From contig NZ_JACHMN010000003.1 in the NCBI RefSeq assembly GCF_014204945.1, positions 2,108,001-2,172,000 on the forward strand: a DNA stretch of 64,000 nucleotides, written 5' to 3'. Every line of letters begins with the position of its first letter. Position 1 is the first letter of the stretch. Position numbers and translations under genes: made by a program. This document shows positions 25,923 to 41,405 of this stretch, piece by piece. Below the pieces are notes generated by a model that made no database searches, was not told where the DNA came from, and was given only the letters and a program-made list of their open reading frames with translations. This DNA is from Allocatelliglobosispora scoriae. GTDB lineage: Bacteria > Actinomycetota > Actinomycetes > Mycobacteriales > Micromonosporaceae.

Positions 25923-27248
25923 TCACGCGAATCGTTCCACCCAGCGCTCGCTCTGCAGCGTGCTGTCGTGCTCCGGGCCGAATGCCATGCTCCGGTCGGT
26001 GGCGACCGCGCGCATCAATCGCAGTCCCTCCGCCCGATCGCCGGCCAGCCCGACGTTCACGGCGAGCAGGTGCCGGGAGTCCAATGTGTAGGCGTGCGCC
26101 GCCCCGAGCGCCCGGGTGGAGTCCGCCACGAGGTCCCGTAGCAGCGTGACCGCCTGGGCCCGGTCGCCGCTCTCCCCGACGTGGTGGGCATGGCCGTACC
26201 GCGCTTCCAGCGCGCTGCGGTGATCGGCGCCGAGCACGCGGCTGTAGTCGTCGGCGAGCTCCCGCAGCAGCCGGGCGGCCTCGGCGTGATCACCGCTCCC
26301 GCCGACGTTCTGGGCGAGGGCGTAGCGGGACCGGAGAGTGGCGTGGTGATCGGCCCCCAGGACCCGGGTCCGGTCGGCGATCACGCCGCGCAGCAGCCGG
26401 ATCGCCTCGGCCCGGTCGCCGGTGGACCCGATGTCGGCGGCGAGGGCGTGGCGGGACGACAGGGTCCTGCTGTGGTCGGCGCCGAGGACCCGGGTCTGGT
26501 CGGCGACGACGCCTCGGAGCAGGCGCGCGGATTCGGCCGGGTCGCCGCCGTTGCGGATCTGCACCGCGAGCAGGGAGCGCGAGCTGAGCGTGAGGACATG
26601 GTCGGCGCCGAGGACCCGGGTCCGGTCGGCGACCACGTCCGCGAGGAGCTCGATCGCGCCGGCCCGGTCGCCGAGCCTGCCGATGGTGAAGGCGAGCTGG
26701 TGCCGCGCGAGCAGGGTGTCCGGGTGGTCGGCGCCCAGCGTCCGGGTCGAGTCGTCGACGAGCCGCCGGTAGAGTCCCGCCGCCTCGGCGTAGGCGCCTC
26801 GATCGAGGGACTTGTGTGCCTCCCGGTGCCGGGTCCTCAGCCGGTCGACCTCGGGGCTCTCCACCGGTGGTGCCTGGTGTGCGCGGAGCCGGTCGAGGAA
26901 GGCGGCCGAGGGCATCCGCCCGCCGGTCACCGCCTCGAACTGGACCGTGCTGAGCCGGAAGAAGACATCGCCGCTGAGCAGCAGCGGCAGGATCGGCCGC
27001 CGCATCAGGGCGGCCCGGTTGATCTCCAGGGCGATCCACTCCGACTCCTCGGCCTGCGGAGTCATGACGACGACGAAGGCGGCGCAGGTGTCGATCTGCT
27101 CGCGGATGACGCGCTCCCACCGGGCGCCGGTGATGATGTCGCGGTCGAACCAGGTCGGGATCCCGGCCGCGATCAGGTGGTCCGCCAGCTGGTGCACGTA
27201 GACCGAGTCGCTGGCGTGGCTGTAGCTGAGGAACACGTGGCCCGTCAC
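25923..27248 (-). CDS. TIR domain protein with seven TPR-like repeats
   Basis: 441 residues. Residues 1-130 are a TIR domain: VFLSYSHASDS, the loop PTWFDRD, and SEWIALEINRA, in which Glu75 is the expected NADase catalytic residue. From about 185 seven 42-residue TPR units follow, each marked by a GADHxxTLxxRxxLA-like signature. TIR proteins with repeat sensors act in bacterial immunity by destroying NAD+ or making signals when triggered. That role here is inference. A TAACGT hexamer 7 nt upstream sets the GTG start. The 219-residue gene lies 10 nt upstream on the same strand. Confidence 0.85.
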   Translation of the reverse strand: MTGHVFLSYSHASDSVYVHQLADHLIAAGIPTWFDRDIITGARWERVIREQIDTCAAFVVVMTPQAEESEWIALEINRAALMRRPILPLLLSGDVFFRLSTVQFEAVTGGRMPSAAFLDRLRAHQAPPVESPEVDRLRTRHREAHKSLDRGAYAEAAGLYRRLVDDSTRTLGADHPDTLLARHQLAFTIGRLGDRAGAIELLADVVADRTRVLGADHVLTLSSRSLLAVQIRNGGDPAESARLLRGVVADQTRVLGADHSRTLSSRHALAADIGSTGDRAEAIRLLRGVIADRTRVLGADHHATLRSRYALAQNVGGSGDHAEAARLLRELADDYSRVLGADHRSALEARYGHAHHVGESGDRAQAVTLLRDLVADSTRALGAAHAYTLDSRHLLAVNVGLAGDRAEGLRLMRAVATDRSMAFGPEHDSTLQSERWVERFA

Positions 27249-27255
27249 GCCCGGC

Positions 27256-27261
27256 ACGTTA
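27256..27261 (-). promoter_or_regulatory. -10 hexamer TAACGT, N7, GTG (leaderless layout)
   Basis: On the minus strand TAACGT is followed by 7 nt and the GTG of the TIR-TPR gene at 27248. It begins inside the stop region of the upstream gene, so the TIR gene may have its own transcript. Confidence 0.5.
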
Positions 27262-34857: not shown

Positions 34858-35352
34858 TTACGGTCGGAGAACATCATCGATGAAGGCGGAGAGCCTCGCC
34901 GTCAGCTCCGTTCCCCGCTGCGCGATCGCCGCCGACGGGTCGGGCATGGCCCGGGTCGGCTGCAGCTCCGCCCGCAGATTGGCGGAGCAGGCGAGGTCGG
35001 CGCAGATGTAGGTGCCGACCGTGTTGCCGTTGCGCCCGGCGGCACCGGGGCGGCGGGCGGTGAACAGCGACACGTTGTCGGCGGTGACGACACACCGGCA
35101 GAGGAAGCACATCGCCGCCCGGCGCTGCGACATCTTCGACTCCGCGGCCTTGAGGAGCAGGCCGACCGGGGCGTCGCCGTCCCAGCCGACGACGTAGCCG
35201 CGCTGCGGGATCTTCGGGTCGCGCCAGCCCAGCATCTCCAGCTCGGCCCAGTCGAAGTCGCCGAAGCCCTTCGGCAGGGTCATCGCGTTCGCCTCGCCCC
35301 TGGTGCTGTTGGTGAGGCTGCGTCGCAGCTCCGGCTCGGTGAGGGGTCGCAT
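34858..35352 (-). CDS. FBP-type zinc-finger protein (EF-G-binding-like)
   Basis: 164 residues. The C-terminal treble-clef finger is clear: CFLCRCVVTADNVSLF, then GTYICADLACSAN, supplying the CxxC...CxxxxC ligands. This domain occurs in FusB/FusC-type proteins that bind EF-G and release it from stalled ribosomes, giving fusidic acid tolerance. Actinomycete members are little studied. The ATG at 35352 has TATCGT 7 nt upstream. Confidence 0.82.
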   Translation of the reverse strand: MRPLTEPELRRSLTNSTRGEANAMTLPKGFGDFDWAELEMLGWRDPKIPQRGYVVGWDGDAPVGLLLKAAESKMSQRRAAMCFLCRCVVTADNVSLFTARRPGAAGRNGNTVGTYICADLACSANLRAELQPTRAMPDPSAAIAQRGTELTARLSAFIDDVLRP

Positions 35353-35359
35353 GATCACG

Positions 35360-35365
35360 ACGATA
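35360..35365 (-). promoter_or_regulatory. -10 hexamer TATCGT, N7, ATG (leaderless layout)
   Basis: On the minus strand TATCGT is followed by 7 nt and the ATG of the FBP protein at 35352, in the short gap after the WD40-KAP gene. Confidence 0.55.
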
Positions 35366-35393
35366 CCCACCCCACCTGCTCGGCTCGACCGAA

Positions 35394-38300
35394 TTACAGG
35401 TAGCGGACGGCGATCGACGCGAACACCTCCGAGTCGGTGCCCGGCCGCCGGAACAGGTTGCGCAGCCCCTGGATCGCGGTGTCGCGCGGGTCGAGCCCGG
35501 CCGACTCGATCGTCTCCGACCAGCGGTCGTCGTCGCCGCACGCGTCGAGCAGCTCCGCCAGGATCGTGCGCCGCGCCGCCACCTCCTCGCCCCGATGCGC
35601 GCCGAGCGCGTCGAGCAGCCACGGCCAGCGCACCATCAGCTCCACGAACCGGGCCATCTCGATGCTGTGCTTCTCGATCGCGCTGAGGCTGCTGCTGAGG
35701 TAGCCGGTGCGGTAGTCGAGGACCATGTAGAAGCGCCACAGGTTGATGAAGGCCTTGGTCTGGCGGGGGTTGCGGGCCGGCAGGGTGAGCACGGCGGTGC
35801 GCAGCGCCAGGCGTACCGGCGGGAGTTTTTCGAGTCTCTCGGCGAGCTGGACCCCGGCGGCGCCGTCGCCGCCGACGTCGAGATCGAGCTCCCCGTCGGC
35901 GAGCCGCGCGGCCTTGCGCTCGGCGCGCGTGGCCGGTTTCGGCGGGGTGGAGACCGGGCTGGGGCTGATCGGCGGCGCGGTCGTCGGCGGGTGGTGGCCG
36001 TTGGTGGAGTCGAGCAGCCGGTCGAGGTAGGTCGAGATCGCCTGGTCGCGGACGCGCGGCAGCCGGATCGGCAGGTCCAGGATCTTCTCCATGAACCGCC
36101 AGCCGGTGTGCTGCAGGTGGCCGAAGCTCGACGGGTCGTCGTTGGCGCGCCGACGGATCGAGTCATAGACCGTCTCCAGCTGCGCCGCGACGGTCGCCGG
36201 GTCGAGGGCGATGACGAAGTGGCACGGCCCGAAGGCCTTGTTGAGGAAGAGGTTGACCGCCTCGACGGTGTCGGCGACGATCGGCGGCCCGCAGCGGTCG
36301 AGGTCGTCGATGAGGATGACGACGGGCGAGCGCCGGGTGGCGAGGTCGAGCACCTCGCCCACGTCGTGCTGGAGCATGTAGAGGTAGCCGCGCTGGCCCG
36401 ACTCCATCGGGTCGCGGGTCGCCTTCCACTCGCTGTCGCCGTGGTGCGCCGCGGAGACGCCGTGCGCGGTGGGCCGGTTGAGCACGCCGGGCGCCATCCA
36501 GCTGCGCACCTTGCTGAAGCTCGACATGGTGATGTTGGCGAGAAATCCCAGCACCGTCAGGATGATCACGGCGGAGGAACCGATCAGCGCGGTCAGGTCC
36601 AGCGTCCGGACGGCGGTGACCGCCATCGCCGAGACCGCGACGACCACGATGACCGTGGCGATGAGAGCCACGACCATTCCCAGGAGGGTACGCGGGATGT
36701 AGCTGGCCAGGATCCGTTTGCGCATCGATGCGGGGTCGGTGCGGCGCAGGTTGAGGTCGAACCAGAGCCGCTCGCGCTGCGGTGCCGGGAGCCGGTCGGT
36801 GATGCCGGTCAGGATCTCCCGGGTGAGGCCGGCCCAGACCTGCTCGGGTGTCTCGTACATCCAGGGGTTGAACCAGATCGTGATCGCCGACGGCGCCGTC
36901 AGATCGGTGCGGGGGCGCATCTCGTAGCCCAGGGACTGCTTGCCCGGCGGCTTCTGCACCTGCCGCCACGCCCACGCCCGGGTCAGCCGGGTGCGGACCG
37001 GTCCGCCCCAGAGCCGGCGCCGGATCCGGCCGGGGATGTCCTTGCCGATGGGGACGAGCTCGTGGGTGTGCTCGGCGAGGTCGCCCTGGCCCTGCGCGTG
37101 GTCGGGATCGGCGCCCGCCGTCGGGTCGAGCCGGTAGCGCAGCTGCCGCAGCACGCTGGACTTGCCCTGGCCCCACGGCGCGTGCACGCCGATCACGACG
37201 GGCGGCTTCGTGCTCGACGACATCAGCACGTCGTGGATCGTCTCGACGAGCTCGGCCCGCGACAGCGAGTCGATGTCGGTCGGCTGGTCCTGCAGCAGGA
37301 TCGACGCGGGGTGGACCTCGGCACCGATGGAGCCGCCGGACCGCAGCAGGCTGCCGGTGGCGATCGGCCAGATCCGGACCAGGCCGTCGTCGTTGGCGGC
37401 GAAGACCGCCGGGACGTTGATGGTCCCGCCGCTGCTCAGCGGGGCGAATCCGACCTCGGCGATGCCCATCGAGCGCACGGTCGAGTTGCCGCAGCGGGCC
37501 GGTTTGCCCACGAGGGCGCCGTCGATCTGCCAGACCAGGATCTGGCCGTCGTCGCAGCCGCCGAAGATCAGCACGTCGTCGCCGATGCGGGCGGCGGCGA
37601 GCGCCGATACCTGCGTACTGGAGTGGGTGTAGCGGAAGCTCGACGTGATCGCGCCCGCGACCGGGTCGATGATGTCGATGACGCAGGTCTCGCCGTGCGG
37701 GCGGGCGGTGATGACGAGGTGGCGGTTGCCGTCGAAGACCTCGCAGGCGGCCGAGACCTGGATGGTGGAGACGGTGTGCAGCGTCGTCGAGGCGAGGGCG
37801 GAGATGACCCGGACACCCCGGTTGGAGGCGACCGTGAGCAGGGTGTCCTCGCCCGCCGGGGTCGCCACGATCGCGTTGACGGCGCCCGCGTCGGCGGCGA
37901 GGATCGTGGGTCCGCCGCTGGTGAGCGGGCACATCCGGACCGTGCCGTCGGCGCTGCCGCTGGCGGCGTACTGGGTGCCGCGCATCAGGAAGGTGGTGAG
38001 CGCCCACACCTCGCCCTGGTGGCCCAGCGGCAGCTCGCGGCGCAGGTCCCCGGTGAGCGGGTCCCAGTCGATCACCCGCCGGTCGGCGCCGCCGCTGATC
38101 AGGTGCGGGTCCAGGGCGTTGCCCGCCGAGGCGAGCGAGCGCACGGTGCTGATGTGTCCGTGCATGTCGATCACCGGCGCGGTCGAGCCGGCATCGGGGC
38201 CCAGGACGTGCACCATCTGGTCCACCCCGGCGCACGCGATGTAGGCGCCGTCCGGGGTGACGCCGGACGCGGCGACCCAGGCGGTGCCGTTGGCGCGGTA

Positions 38301-39278
38301 GAGGTCCCGGCCGGTCCGGTCGCTGATCGCGTCGGTCCGCAGCTGGGTCACCTCGACACCGCCGTGCATGTCGCCGGAGGCGATCACCATGCCGCCGTCG
38401 GCGGTGACGGCGGACGCCAGCGACCACGCCTCGCCGAGGTGCTGCACGAGCGGCCGCATCGGCTTCTCGGTCGAGCCGTCGAACCGCCACAGGGCCACGG
38501 CACCGTTGGCGGCCGCGGTGACGAGCATCGGCACTTCGCCGTCGTTGATGCTGCTCAGGCGGCGTACGGTGGCGCCGACGGTGAGGGTGCGGGCCAGCAG
38601 CAGTCCGTTGCCCTGGATCGGCCGCCACATCCGCACCGTGCCGTCGGCGGAGCCGCTCGCCACGGCGTAGTCCGAGCCGGGGCCGTCGATGGCGATGAGC
38701 GACCAGATCTGCCCGGTGTGCGCCCGGGTCTGCCGGGATGTCGGGCCGTCGCCGGGGTCGCCGAGGTCCCACACCGCGAGCGACTCGTCGCTGTATGCGC
38801 AGGCGAGCCACTGCGAGTCGAACGCCCGGTAGATGCAGAGCTTGTAGCCGCGGGCCGTGCCGAGACCCGCCGACTGGGGAAGCTGCGTGACCCGCCCGGC
38901 GGCGGTCCAGATCGCGACGCCGCCGTCGTGGATCGCCGCGACGTCGTTGGTCCCGTCGTCGTGCAGGACGATGCCCAGGTCGGAGACCTCGCCATTGCCG
39001 ACGTCGACGGTGGTGACCGGTTCGCCCGTGTCCGGCTCGAAGATCCGGATCCGGCCGTCGGCGCAGCCGACCAGCAGGTGGTCGTTGTCCTCGTCGATGG
39101 GAAGAGCCTCGACAGAGGTCGCGTTGACGGGCAGGCTGATCACGTGCTGGACTTCGCGATTGCGGACCCGCCGCAGCTCCACGCCGTTGCTGCGGGCGAC
39201 CGCGAGGAGCAGCTCACCACGGGTGCGGACGAGCTTCATGTGGGCGGCGGCCCCACCGAGCCTTGCTTCCTCCGGCAT
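35394..39278 (-). CDS. Giant WD40-repeat KAP P-loop NTPase
   Basis: 1294 residues. Residues about 10-640 form many WD40-like blades (recurring SGSADGTVRMW, SGGADRRVIDWDP, GGCDDGQILVWQ). A KAP NTPase domain follows: Walker A VHAPWGQGKSSVL near 697-710, a membrane hairpin near 865-915 (two or three helices), and Walker B VVILIDDLDRC near 985-995. A Pro-rich linker and an acidic helical end complete it. KAP proteins are membrane-anchored, STAND-related NTPases. GGGGAG before the ATG at 39278 sets the start. It stands alone. A sensor role, perhaps in defence, is inference. Confidence 0.88.
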   Translation of the reverse strand: MPEEARLGGAAAHMKLVRTRGELLLAVARSNGVELRRVRNREVQHVISLPVNATSVEALPIDEDNDHLLVGCADGRIRIFEPDTGEPVTTVDVGNGEVSDLGIVLHDDGTNDVAAIHDGGVAIWTAAGRVTQLPQSAGLGTARGYKLCIYRAFDSQWLACAYSDESLAVWDLGDPGDGPTSRQTRAHTGQIWSLIAIDGPGSDYAVASGSADGTVRMWRPIQGNGLLLARTLTVGATVRRLSSINDGEVPMLVTAAANGAVALWRFDGSTEKPMRPLVQHLGEAWSLASAVTADGGMVIASGDMHGGVEVTQLRTDAISDRTGRDLYRANGTAWVAASGVTPDGAYIACAGVDQMVHVLGPDAGSTAPVIDMHGHISTVRSLASAGNALDPHLISGGADRRVIDWDPLTGDLRRELPLGHQGEVWALTTFLMRGTQYAASGSADGTVRMCPLTSGGPTILAADAGAVNAIVATPAGEDTLLTVASNRGVRVISALASTTLHTVSTIQVSAACEVFDGNRHLVITARPHGETCVIDIIDPVAGAITSSFRYTHSSTQVSALAAARIGDDVLIFGGCDDGQILVWQIDGALVGKPARCGNSTVRSMGIAEVGFAPLSSGGTINVPAVFAANDDGLVRIWPIATGSLLRSGGSIGAEVHPASILLQDQPTDIDSLSRAELVETIHDVLMSSSTKPPVVIGVHAPWGQGKSSVLRQLRYRLDPTAGADPDHAQGQGDLAEHTHELVPIGKDIPGRIRRRLWGGPVRTRLTRAWAWRQVQKPPGKQSLGYEMRPRTDLTAPSAITIWFNPWMYETPEQVWAGLTREILTGITDRLPAPQRERLWFDLNLRRTDPASMRKRILASYIPRTLLGMVVALIATVIVVVAVSAMAVTAVRTLDLTALIGSSAVIILTVLGFLANITMSSFSKVRSWMAPGVLNRPTAHGVSAAHHGDSEWKATRDPMESGQRGYLYMLQHDVGEVLDLATRRSPVVILIDDLDRCGPPIVADTVEAVNLFLNKAFGPCHFVIALDPATVAAQLETVYDSIRRRANDDPSSFGHLQHTGWRFMEKILDLPIRLPRVRDQAISTYLDRLLDSTNGHHPPTTAPPISPSPVSTPPKPATRAERKAARLADGELDLDVGGDGAAGVQLAERLEKLPPVRLALRTAVLTLPARNPRQTKAFINLWRFYMVLDYRTGYLSSSLSAIEKHSIEMARFVELMVRWPWLLDALGAHRGEEVAARRTILAELLDACGDDDRWSETIESAGLDPRDTAIQGLRNLFRRPGTDSEVFASIAVRYL

Positions 39279-39429
39279 GCGCTCTCCCCGTGATCCATGG
39301 TGTGTGGCACAGCTGCGGTACGTTCTGGCGAAGCAATACGTGAATATCATGTCCTATTAGTGCGATGAGTGTCCGATTGGCGACGGTGAGGTTAAGGCGT
39401 ATCCCTCATCGGGACGAGGTGTTGGGTAA

Positions 39430-40695
39430 GTGAAGGTCAAGACGACAACCGCACGACGGCGCCGCAAGGTGGACATTGTGGACGAAGCACCCTCGGTGGC
39501 GGAGCCGCCGCCGCTGTTCCGGCGCGTGCTCGCCAGGCTGGAGTTCCTGGACTGGCTCGCCATCGGCCTGCTGGTCGCGGGCGGGCTCGCCGTCGCCACG
39601 GGGGCGCTGCCCACCAGCGTCTCCTCGGTGACGCTGGAGCGGATCGCGCCGCTGCTCGCCTTCCTCGCCGCCGTCATCGTGCTCGCGGAGCTCACCGCGC
39701 AGGCCGAGGTCTTCGACGTCATCGCCAGCCGGATCACCATCTGGGCCGGCGGCAGCAACGTCGTGCTCTTCGGCCTGTGCCTGGGATTCGCCGCGCTCAC
39801 CACGATCTTCCTCAACCTGGACACGACGGCGGTGCTGCTGACGCCGGTGATGCTGGCGACGGCCTATCGCGCCGGGGTGGACCGGCTGCCGCTGGCGATG
39901 ACGACCGTGTGGCTCGCCAACACCGCGAGCCTGCTGCTGCCCGTCTCCAACCTGACCAACCTGCTCGCCGCCGACCGGATCGGCCTGCGCCCGCTGGAGT
40001 TCGCGGCCCGGATGGCGCTGCCGCAGGTCGCGGCGCTCGTCGTCGTCGCCGTCTGCCTGTGGGTCTTCTACTGGCGGCACAACGCCAAGCGCTACACGCC
40101 GCCCGCCCCGCACACGCCGAGCCACCGCAACCTCTTCATCGTGGCCTCGATCAGCTGCCTCGTCTTCATCGTCGGCATCCTGGTCGGCTGGGCGATCTGG
40201 GCCATCGCCGCCGTCTGCGCGGCCGTGCTCGTCGTCGCGTTCGCCGTCTGGGACCGCACACACCTGCGGTGGAGCCTGATCCCGTGGCGGCTGCTCGCCT
40301 TCGTGACCGGGCTCTTCCTCGTCGTCGACACGATCTTCGAGTGGGGCCTGTCGCACGTGATGACGGCGCTCATCGGCACCGATCCCGGCGCATCCGGGGT
40401 GTGGCGGGCCGCGACCACCGGCGGGGTGCTCTCCAACCTGCTCAACAACCTGCCGACCTATCTCACCGGCGAGCACGTCATCCCGGTTGCCAACGGCGAT
40501 CAGCTCTTCGGGCTGCTCATCGGCACCAACGTCGGTCCGCTGATCACGCCGTGGGCGTCGCTGGCGACCCTGCTCTGGCTGGAGCGCTGCCGCTCCGCCG
40601 GTGTCGAGATCAAGTGGGGCCGCTTCCTGGCCACGGGCGCCATCACCGCCGTGGCTGTCCTGGTCGCGAGCATCGCCAGCCTGCTCTACCTCTAG
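39430..40695 (+). CDS. ArsB/NhaD/SLC13-type ion transporter
   Basis: 421 residues with about 11 membrane helices. The Ion Transporter superfamily hallmarks are present: LTTIFLNLDTTAVLLTPVML in the first half and LSNLLNNLPTYL plus GTNVGPLITPWASLATLLWL in the second. This is closest in feel to ArsB/arsenite or Na+/H+ antiporters; the substrate is unknown. The N-terminal 35 residues are basic and Pro-rich. A GTG start is used here; GTG codons about 40-50 nt downstream are alternatives. Confidence 0.85.
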   Translation: MKVKTTTARRRRKVDIVDEAPSVAEPPPLFRRVLARLEFLDWLAIGLLVAGGLAVATGALPTSVSSVTLERIAPLLAFLAAVIVLAELTAQAEVFDVIASRITIWAGGSNVVLFGLCLGFAALTTIFLNLDTTAVLLTPVMLATAYRAGVDRLPLAMTTVWLANTASLLLPVSNLTNLLAADRIGLRPLEFAARMALPQVAALVVVAVCLWVFYWRHNAKRYTPPAPHTPSHRNLFIVASISCLVFIVGILVGWAIWAIAAVCAAVLVVAFAVWDRTHLRWSLIPWRLLAFVTGLFLVVDTIFEWGLSHVMTALIGTDPGASGVWRAATTGGVLSNLLNNLPTYLTGEHVIPVANGDQLFGLLIGTNVGPLITPWASLATLLWLERCRSAGVEIKWGRFLATGAITAVAVLVASIASLLYL

Positions 40696-40788: not shown

Positions 40789-41175
40789 TCAGAGGTCGAG
40801 GATGTCGTCGTCGGGGAGTTCGCGGCGGGCCTCGTCGCCGAGGTAGGTGGCGAGCACCGCGTGGTACTTCCCCGCCTCCGCGACCGCGTGCGCCAGGCCC
40901 TGTTCGATCGAGGCCGCGGCGACCGCGAGCACGTCGTCGGCGAGCAGCGGCAGCAGGATCGTCGGCCCGTCGGGCGTGGTGGCGAGCTCGATGAGCCGAC
41001 CGCGGTCACCGCCCCGGCTCTGCCGCACGGCGGCGACGAGGCACAACGCCGGTACGCCGGTGACGTCACCGTCCTCCGCCACGGTGGCGATCAGCTCGCC
41101 CACGGCGACGGACCGCAGATCGGCGGCGGCGTAGGCGAGCAGCGCGGACGTGTCGAGGATCAGCCGGACGCTCAC
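40789..41175 (-). CDS. PIN-like domain protein, putative toxin
   Basis: 128 residues. The first PIN motif RLILDTSALLAY is clear (Asp8). Later acidic positions are less so: VGELI near 27, and GKYHAVLATYLGDEARRELPDDD at the end, where a normal PIN protein has a D-x-x-x-A-x-x-A helix. It may be an unusual or inactive RNase. The GTG start overlaps the ribbon-helix-helix gene stop by 4 nt (GTGA), the typical antitoxin-toxin layout. The stop abuts palindrome B. Confidence 0.72.
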   Translation of the reverse strand: MSVRLILDTSALLAYAAADLRSVAVGELIATVAEDGDVTGVPALCLVAAVRQSRGGDRGRLIELATTPDGPTILLPLLADDVLAVAAASIEQGLAHAVAEAGKYHAVLATYLGDEARRELPDDDILDL

Positions 41176-41405
41176 GCGGCTTCGGCGCGGGCCCGGCGGC
41201 GGGCCTCGAGGTCGAGCAGGCGCGTCTTGGCGGCGGCGACGCCCTGGTCGGTGACCGGGATGCCGTGGCGGCTGAGCATGTCGCGGGTGGTGTCGCGGCG
41301 GCGGCGGAGCTTGATCGCCTCGGCGATGTAGGCCGACGCGTTCTCCACGTGATCGAGGTGCTCGGCGACATCGTCGGGGAGACTGATGCTCAACTTCCTG
41401 GTCAT
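41172..41405 (-). CDS. Ribbon-helix-helix (CopG/Arc-type) antitoxin-like protein
   Basis: 77 residues. The N-terminal RKLSISLPDDVAEHLDHVENASAYIAEAI is a typical ribbon-helix-helix DNA-binding segment. The C-terminal half is a charged helix ending RRRARAEAA, fit to bind a toxin. A TACACT hexamer 7 nt before the ATG and an adjacent GACCGGTC palindrome suggest autoregulation. It is coupled to the PIN-like gene. Confidence 0.82.
   Translation of the reverse strand: MTRKLSISLPDDVAEHLDHVENASAYIAEAIKLRRRRDTTRDMLSRHGIPVTDQGVAAAKTRLLDLEARRRARAEAA

Follow-up and report, generated by a model that had tools for sequence, protein, structure and literature searches.

A WD40-KAP NTPase and its divergently encoded ArsB-like permease in actinobacteria: a candidate membrane-anchored conflict module

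The window analysed here, i.e. a stretch of 64,000 nucleotides from the Allocatelliglobosispora scoriae genome, contains a minus-strand open reading frame that runs from 39278 to 35394 and encodes a protein of 1294 residues with WD40 repeats in its N-terminal half and a KAP-type P-loop NTPase in its C-terminal half (hereafter WD40-KAP). A plausible Shine-Dalgarno sequence (GGGGAGAG) is found upstream of the ATG at 39278, which agrees with the original prediction that the gene has its own ribosome-binding start. An alternative start at 39350 is also open and would lengthen the protein by 24 residues. The features of the locus, in window coordinates, are as follows:

34858–35370, minus strand: FBP_C gene, ∼24 bp downstream of WD40-KAP and in the same direction
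35394–39278, minus strand: WD40-KAP NTPase gene (open reading frame, 1294 aa; orthologues found)
37344–39254, minus strand: WD40 half, ∼14 blades, residues ∼9–645 (Pfam, AlphaFold, tandem-propeller matches)
35397–37292, minus strand: KAP P-loop NTPase half, residues 663–1294 (PF07693; AAA+/RdrA-like fold)
37155–37190, minus strand: Walker A, GVHAPWGQGKSS, residues 697–708 (P-loop residues invariant in the alignment)
36852–36875, minus strand: KAP signature WFNPWMYE, residues 802–809 (alignment and motif position)
36510–36686, minus strand: two-helix membrane hairpin, residues 865–923 (hydropathy; helices in the model)
36291–36323, minus strand: Walker B, VVILIDDLDRC, residues 986–996 (DD-DRC invariant)
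35859–36005, minus strand: variable Pro-rich linker, residues ∼1092–1140 (alignment; pLDDT under 50)
35748–35774, minus strand: conserved C-terminal motif RNPRQTKAF, residues 1169–1177 (near-invariant in the alignment)
39279–39429, intergenic: divergent promoter region of 151 bp between WD40-KAP and the permease gene
39430–40695, plus strand: ArsB/CitMHS-like permease of the ion transporter superfamily, 421 aa, several transmembrane helices (PF03600, E 4e-30; PF02040, E 1e-24)

Numerous WD40/beta-propeller Pfam profiles match residues ∼24–660 of WD40-KAP. The AlphaFold model of this half (pLDDT 87) contains ∼54 strands, which corresponds to about 14 blades, and its matches among solved structures include the tandem-propeller proteins Gemin5 and Apaf-1. 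The modelled fold is consistent with two tandem beta-propellers, presumably the sensor or auto-inhibitory part of the protein. The second half matches KAP_NTPase (PF07693) at residues 675–1180 with 87.2 bits against a cut-off of 20 (E 1.5e-24), and the protein misses the cut-offs of the NACHT and nSTAND Pfam models (best nSTAND_NTPase5, 19.7 bits vs 34). A membrane hairpin is inserted in the KAP core between Walker A and Walker B; its two helices lie at ∼869–887 and 895–913 by hydropathy and at 865–891 and 895–923 in the AlphaFold model. The motor motifs and the hairpin are retained in all eight orthologues compared by alignment and hydropathy, so their occurrence is not due to chance. The propeller half is less conserved and diverges faster than the KAP half. 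The RNPRQTKAF motif is a candidate sensor/arginine region.

The KAP half has a moderate AlphaFold model (pLDDT 66). Among solved structures, its core comes nearest to the ring ATPase RdrA of the RADAR defence system (Z 15.3, 305 residues, rmsd 5.8), with AAA+ proteins of the ORC/Cdc6 type next in rank; a sequence-profile search found no KAP structure among solved structures. The original prediction, which had proposed structure modelling as a means of counting the blades and confirming the KAP core, placed Walker A near residue 700, membrane helices at 865–915 and Walker B near 990, behind a run of WD40 blades. Pfam, motif and AlphaFold analyses bear out this order, with the three elements at 697, 865–923 and 986, and modelling gave the ∼14 blades and the RdrA/AAA+-like core described above.

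We then compared WD40-KAP with known systems. Tmn is an antiphage KAP NTPase with two transmembrane segments (PMC11846954), and it resembles WD40-KAP by architecture: both are single large proteins with a KAP-family NTPase that carries two membrane helices within the NTPase domain. However, WD40 propellers and a permease, both of which WD40-KAP has, are not mentioned for Tmn as described in PMC11846954, and no Tmn-labelled match for WD40-KAP occurs among the PADLOC matches. KAP has also been noted as a stand-in for the STAND NTPase in counter-invader systems (PMC8195603). The best curated match is QatA, the KAP antiphage ATPase of the Qat system, but it covers the KAP half only (E 1.9e-23) and falls below the QatA equivalog cut-off (83 bits vs 600). 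The Qat partners qatB/C/D were not recognised beside WD40-KAP, whose flanks consist of FBP_C, the permease and other genes, and PADLOC gave no Qat matches. PifA, the KAP NTPase through which the F plasmid excludes phage T7 at the membrane, matches WD40-KAP at the Walker A stretch only (residues 670–721, E 3e-7). No solved fold is closer to the KAP core than that of RdrA, a ring-forming defence ATPase, yet identity is only 10%, and WD40 propellers and a permease partner are not known as parts of RADAR. Apaf-1 and STAND-WD40 proteins likewise combine tandem WD40 propellers with an NTPase that oligomerises. In Apaf-1, however, the propellers are C-terminal rather than N-terminal, and these proteins use NB-ARC or NACHT domains where WD40-KAP has KAP plus a membrane hairpin. 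A sensor-controlled, oligomerising ATPase at the membrane, as originally proposed, is plausible in view of the RdrA-like core and the Tmn precedent, with QatA as the best curated name far under its cut-off.

WD40-KAP orthologues are sparse and patchy. They are present in 10 of 151 genomes of the family and, in a phylum-wide sample, in one of 198 genomes, i.e. the host itself (genome counts rest on samples of 150–250 genomes). A scan of 84,980 species recovered orthologues in Hamadaea (61–65% identity), Catellatospora, Allorhizocola, Antribacter and a Pseudonocardiales MAG, and KAP-only matches in other phyla. One Hamadaea genome (G084, L036 8019–9869) encodes a KAP protein of 616 aa that lacks WD40 repeats and is ∼38–41% identical to the KAP half of the window protein. 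KAP homologues of other phyla have differing N-terminal parts (L018 1756–4269 and L020 8687–11911; by eye peptidoglycan-binding and trypsin-like), which suggests that the front end of KAP proteins has been swapped widely.

Genes were called around 15 loci and all neighbours were compared. The divergent permease adjoins 11 of the 12 orthologues whose neighbourhood was read (the 11 being the closer orthologues, window included), and it is the sole neighbour conserved with WD40-KAP. The pair recurs in seven unrelated contexts from three actinobacterial lineages, including those of Antribacter and the Pseudonocardiales MAG, that have nothing else in common. With a conserved divergent permease next door, and other WD40 giants in the same slot in other genera (see below), the view of a standalone gene encoding a self-contained system without a partner has to be given up. 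The FBP_C gene is not conserved beside the orthologues in the same neighbourhood comparison. In the divergent promoter region no operator motif is conserved outside close relatives, the only ones that can be aligned there, and a conserved operator was rejected on these grounds.

The permease retains the transporter motifs of its superfamily (NLDTTAVLLTPV, NTASLLLPVSNLTN, NNLP and NVGP) and probably works as a transporter within the two-gene module. It lies below the ArsB subfamily cut-off (140.6 bits vs 457), and none of the neighbours scanned was named as an ars gene. The distance matrices of permease and KAP are closely correlated (r 0.96, Mantel p 0.0005), as expected for co-inheritance, to which shared species history contributes. 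The permease is present in 55 of the 151 family genomes.

The wider surroundings were inspected for signs of defence or mobility. The neighbouring genes tested have metabolic or unknown functions, and the sole nearby PADLOC matches, which are TIR-effector-like, belong to a gene ∼8 kb away (25923–27257, minus strand) for a 444-aa protein with a TIR domain and TPR repeats. A defence island, for which the original prediction had suggested a survey of the homologues, was rejected for the window, where the neighbours scanned with PADLOC gave matches for the TIR-TPR gene only, and none was seen in the neighbourhood survey. Cargo of a mobile element was rejected as well: WD40-KAP has no relatives in viral contigs, none on plasmids at E 1e-20, and there is no tRNA within the window. 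By eye, two small overlapping genes at 40789–41405 (minus strand) resemble a PIN toxin and its antitoxin; they have no Pfam or PADLOC match. Elsewhere in its genome the host encodes a second WD40-KAP protein (1267 aa, ∼27% identical; L037 1535–13508, i.e. G000:C2 ∼2061534–2073507). Genes for an uncharacterised 258-aa protein, an Hsp70-like protein, two methyltransferases and a caspase-domain protein are located near it on the same strand, and this neighbourhood is possibly a separate conflict locus.

The history of the pair can be followed beside gltX (gene names by eye). In genome G008 (L035), WD40-KAP lies between an SRPBCC gene and gltX without the permease, in the position and orientation expected had an ancestral divergent pair lost its permease. 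Conversely, six related loci (L073, L077, L078, L082, L091 and L103) contain the permease beside gltX and no KAP gene. In the permease tree, five of these six permeases group together as the sister of the main KAP-linked clade; the tree excludes the sixth, which is split into two ORFs. Such reciprocal loss suggests that the pair is old and has been broken up repeatedly by separate losses. The NTPase persists without the permease at least once (G008), and the majority of permeases in the clade have no NTPase neighbour; the permease evidently works alone.

Neighbourhoods were also read for 34 loci without WD40-KAP and 20 class-wide loci. In several genera and a second family, the same divergent slot by the permease is occupied by a different giant of 1.6–1.95 kaa, which consists of a phosphoesterase-like domain (often with TIR before it) followed by NA-iREase3, NACHT, pentapeptide repeats and WD40. 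Hydropathy indicates no transmembrane helix of their own in these NACHT/TIR partners. In the permease tree, a giant WD40 NTPase lies beside 22 of 49 permeases of one clade (support 100/100) and beside none of the 14 outgroup permeases; 21 of the 22 linked pairs are directly adjacent, and in the remaining one (L089) a 302-aa gene lies between. When the permease clade is counted by gene context, 13 of 21 are linked. The genomes contain 2–38 WD40-profile matches each, from which we assumed a WD40-neighbour rate of 1%; at this assumed rate the linkage would arise by chance with a probability of ∼2e-21, and the contexts are only roughly independent, yet the margin is large. In genome G007 (L099), a TIR giant that is a homologue of the permease-linked NACHT proteins lies five genes away from the permease instead of adjacent to it. 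When compared by profile and BLAST, KAP-type propellers show no greater similarity to their counterparts in the permease-linked NACHT giants than to WD40 proteins that have no permease link. Because the scores overlap those of unlinked WD40 proteins, we make no claim of a common propeller ligand for the two types of partner. Antiphage activity has been shown by experiment for DS-8, a metallophosphatase-NACHT system, and for the related phosphoesterase system DS-9 (PMC13092281); they share phosphoesterase and NACHT domains with the alternative partner of the permease only, and the window gene has neither.

Taken together, we favour, with moderate confidence, the explanation that WD40-KAP is a membrane-anchored conflict ATPase (i.e. 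anti-invader or cell-suicide) paired with the permease; it would act in the manner of Tmn, with a build that recalls Apaf-1 or RdrA. Defence or suicide is put first because Tmn is antiphage and KAP replaces STAND NTPases in counter-invader systems. The defence role originally proposed gains from these KAP precedents and from the immune-type domains of the permease-linked giants, and loses from the lack of a defence island; we infer it from domain company. In the proposed mechanism, (i) the two cytosolic propellers would hold the ATPase monomeric at rest, as in Apaf-1; (ii) they would bind a trigger, which could be a protein of the phage or else the permease once its state is disturbed; (iii) ATP exchange would then let the KAP cores assemble a ring at the membrane; and (iv) the inserted hairpins would damage or depolarise the membrane, stopping the infected cell. 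The permease would serve as the membrane anchor or as the monitored partner of the sensor. This role is the most economical because the two module types differ in their output domains, one having the KAP hairpin and the other TIR and/or phosphoesterase, but have the permease, WD40 repeats and an oligomerising NTPase in common. On this reading WD40-KAP and the permease would be one functional module, in which the NTPase perhaps guards the permease. A more specific guard–guardee form, which we regard as tentative and rather improbable, holds that giant WD40 NTPases of exchangeable type, either a KAP ring at the membrane or a NACHT receptor with TIR/phosphoesterase, watch an active ArsB-like permease, and that an invader interfering with either the permease or the membrane would free the propeller brake and lead to suicide.

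The strongest alternative, which we consider somewhat improbable, is that WD40-KAP is devoted to the permease, as its regulator or assembly ATPase in normal ion or oxyanion physiology, and plays the part that the unrelated ArsA plays for ArsB. The tight divergent pairing, the mirrored evolution and the intact transporter motifs would all fit such a role, as would the example of animal KAP proteins (Kidins220), which scaffold membrane proteins. However, the same permease runs without the NTPase in most relatives, it falls below the ArsB cut-offs in neighbourhoods where no ars genes are named among those scanned, and the TIR and phosphoesterase domains of the alternative partner are typical of immunity and needless for such a role. 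Alternatively, the permease itself could be the effector: the NTPase would sense an invader and open or over-drive the permease, and ion gradients would collapse. We judge this unlikely. Although the permease is the one membrane component found throughout both module types and the NACHT/TIR partners have no transmembrane helix of their own, the partners already carry outputs (membrane hairpin, TIR and phosphoesterase), one WD40-KAP persists without the permease, and the permease occurs alone in most genomes and is therefore not a dedicated toxin. Neutral linkage, in which the region upstream of the permease is merely an old or favoured spot for WD40 giants with no functional tie, would suit the common and stable occurrence of lone permeases in other contexts and the reciprocal loss beside gltX, but appears a shade more unlikely still, given a pair kept in seven unrelated KAP contexts that share nothing else and the small chance probability calculated above at the assumed base rate of 1%.

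A full-text search found no combination of an ArsB or arsenic transporter with WD40/NACHT in the literature among the matches listed, and on these matches the permease pairing appears to be undocumented. These actinobacteria commonly encode KAP and NACHT ATPases fused to WD40 repeats. A fixed permease partner of otherwise unlike giants gives a testable lead to the component that is sensed or that recruits them. If the permease is indeed the guarded protein, the module would exemplify in bacteria the guard strategy of plant immune receptors.
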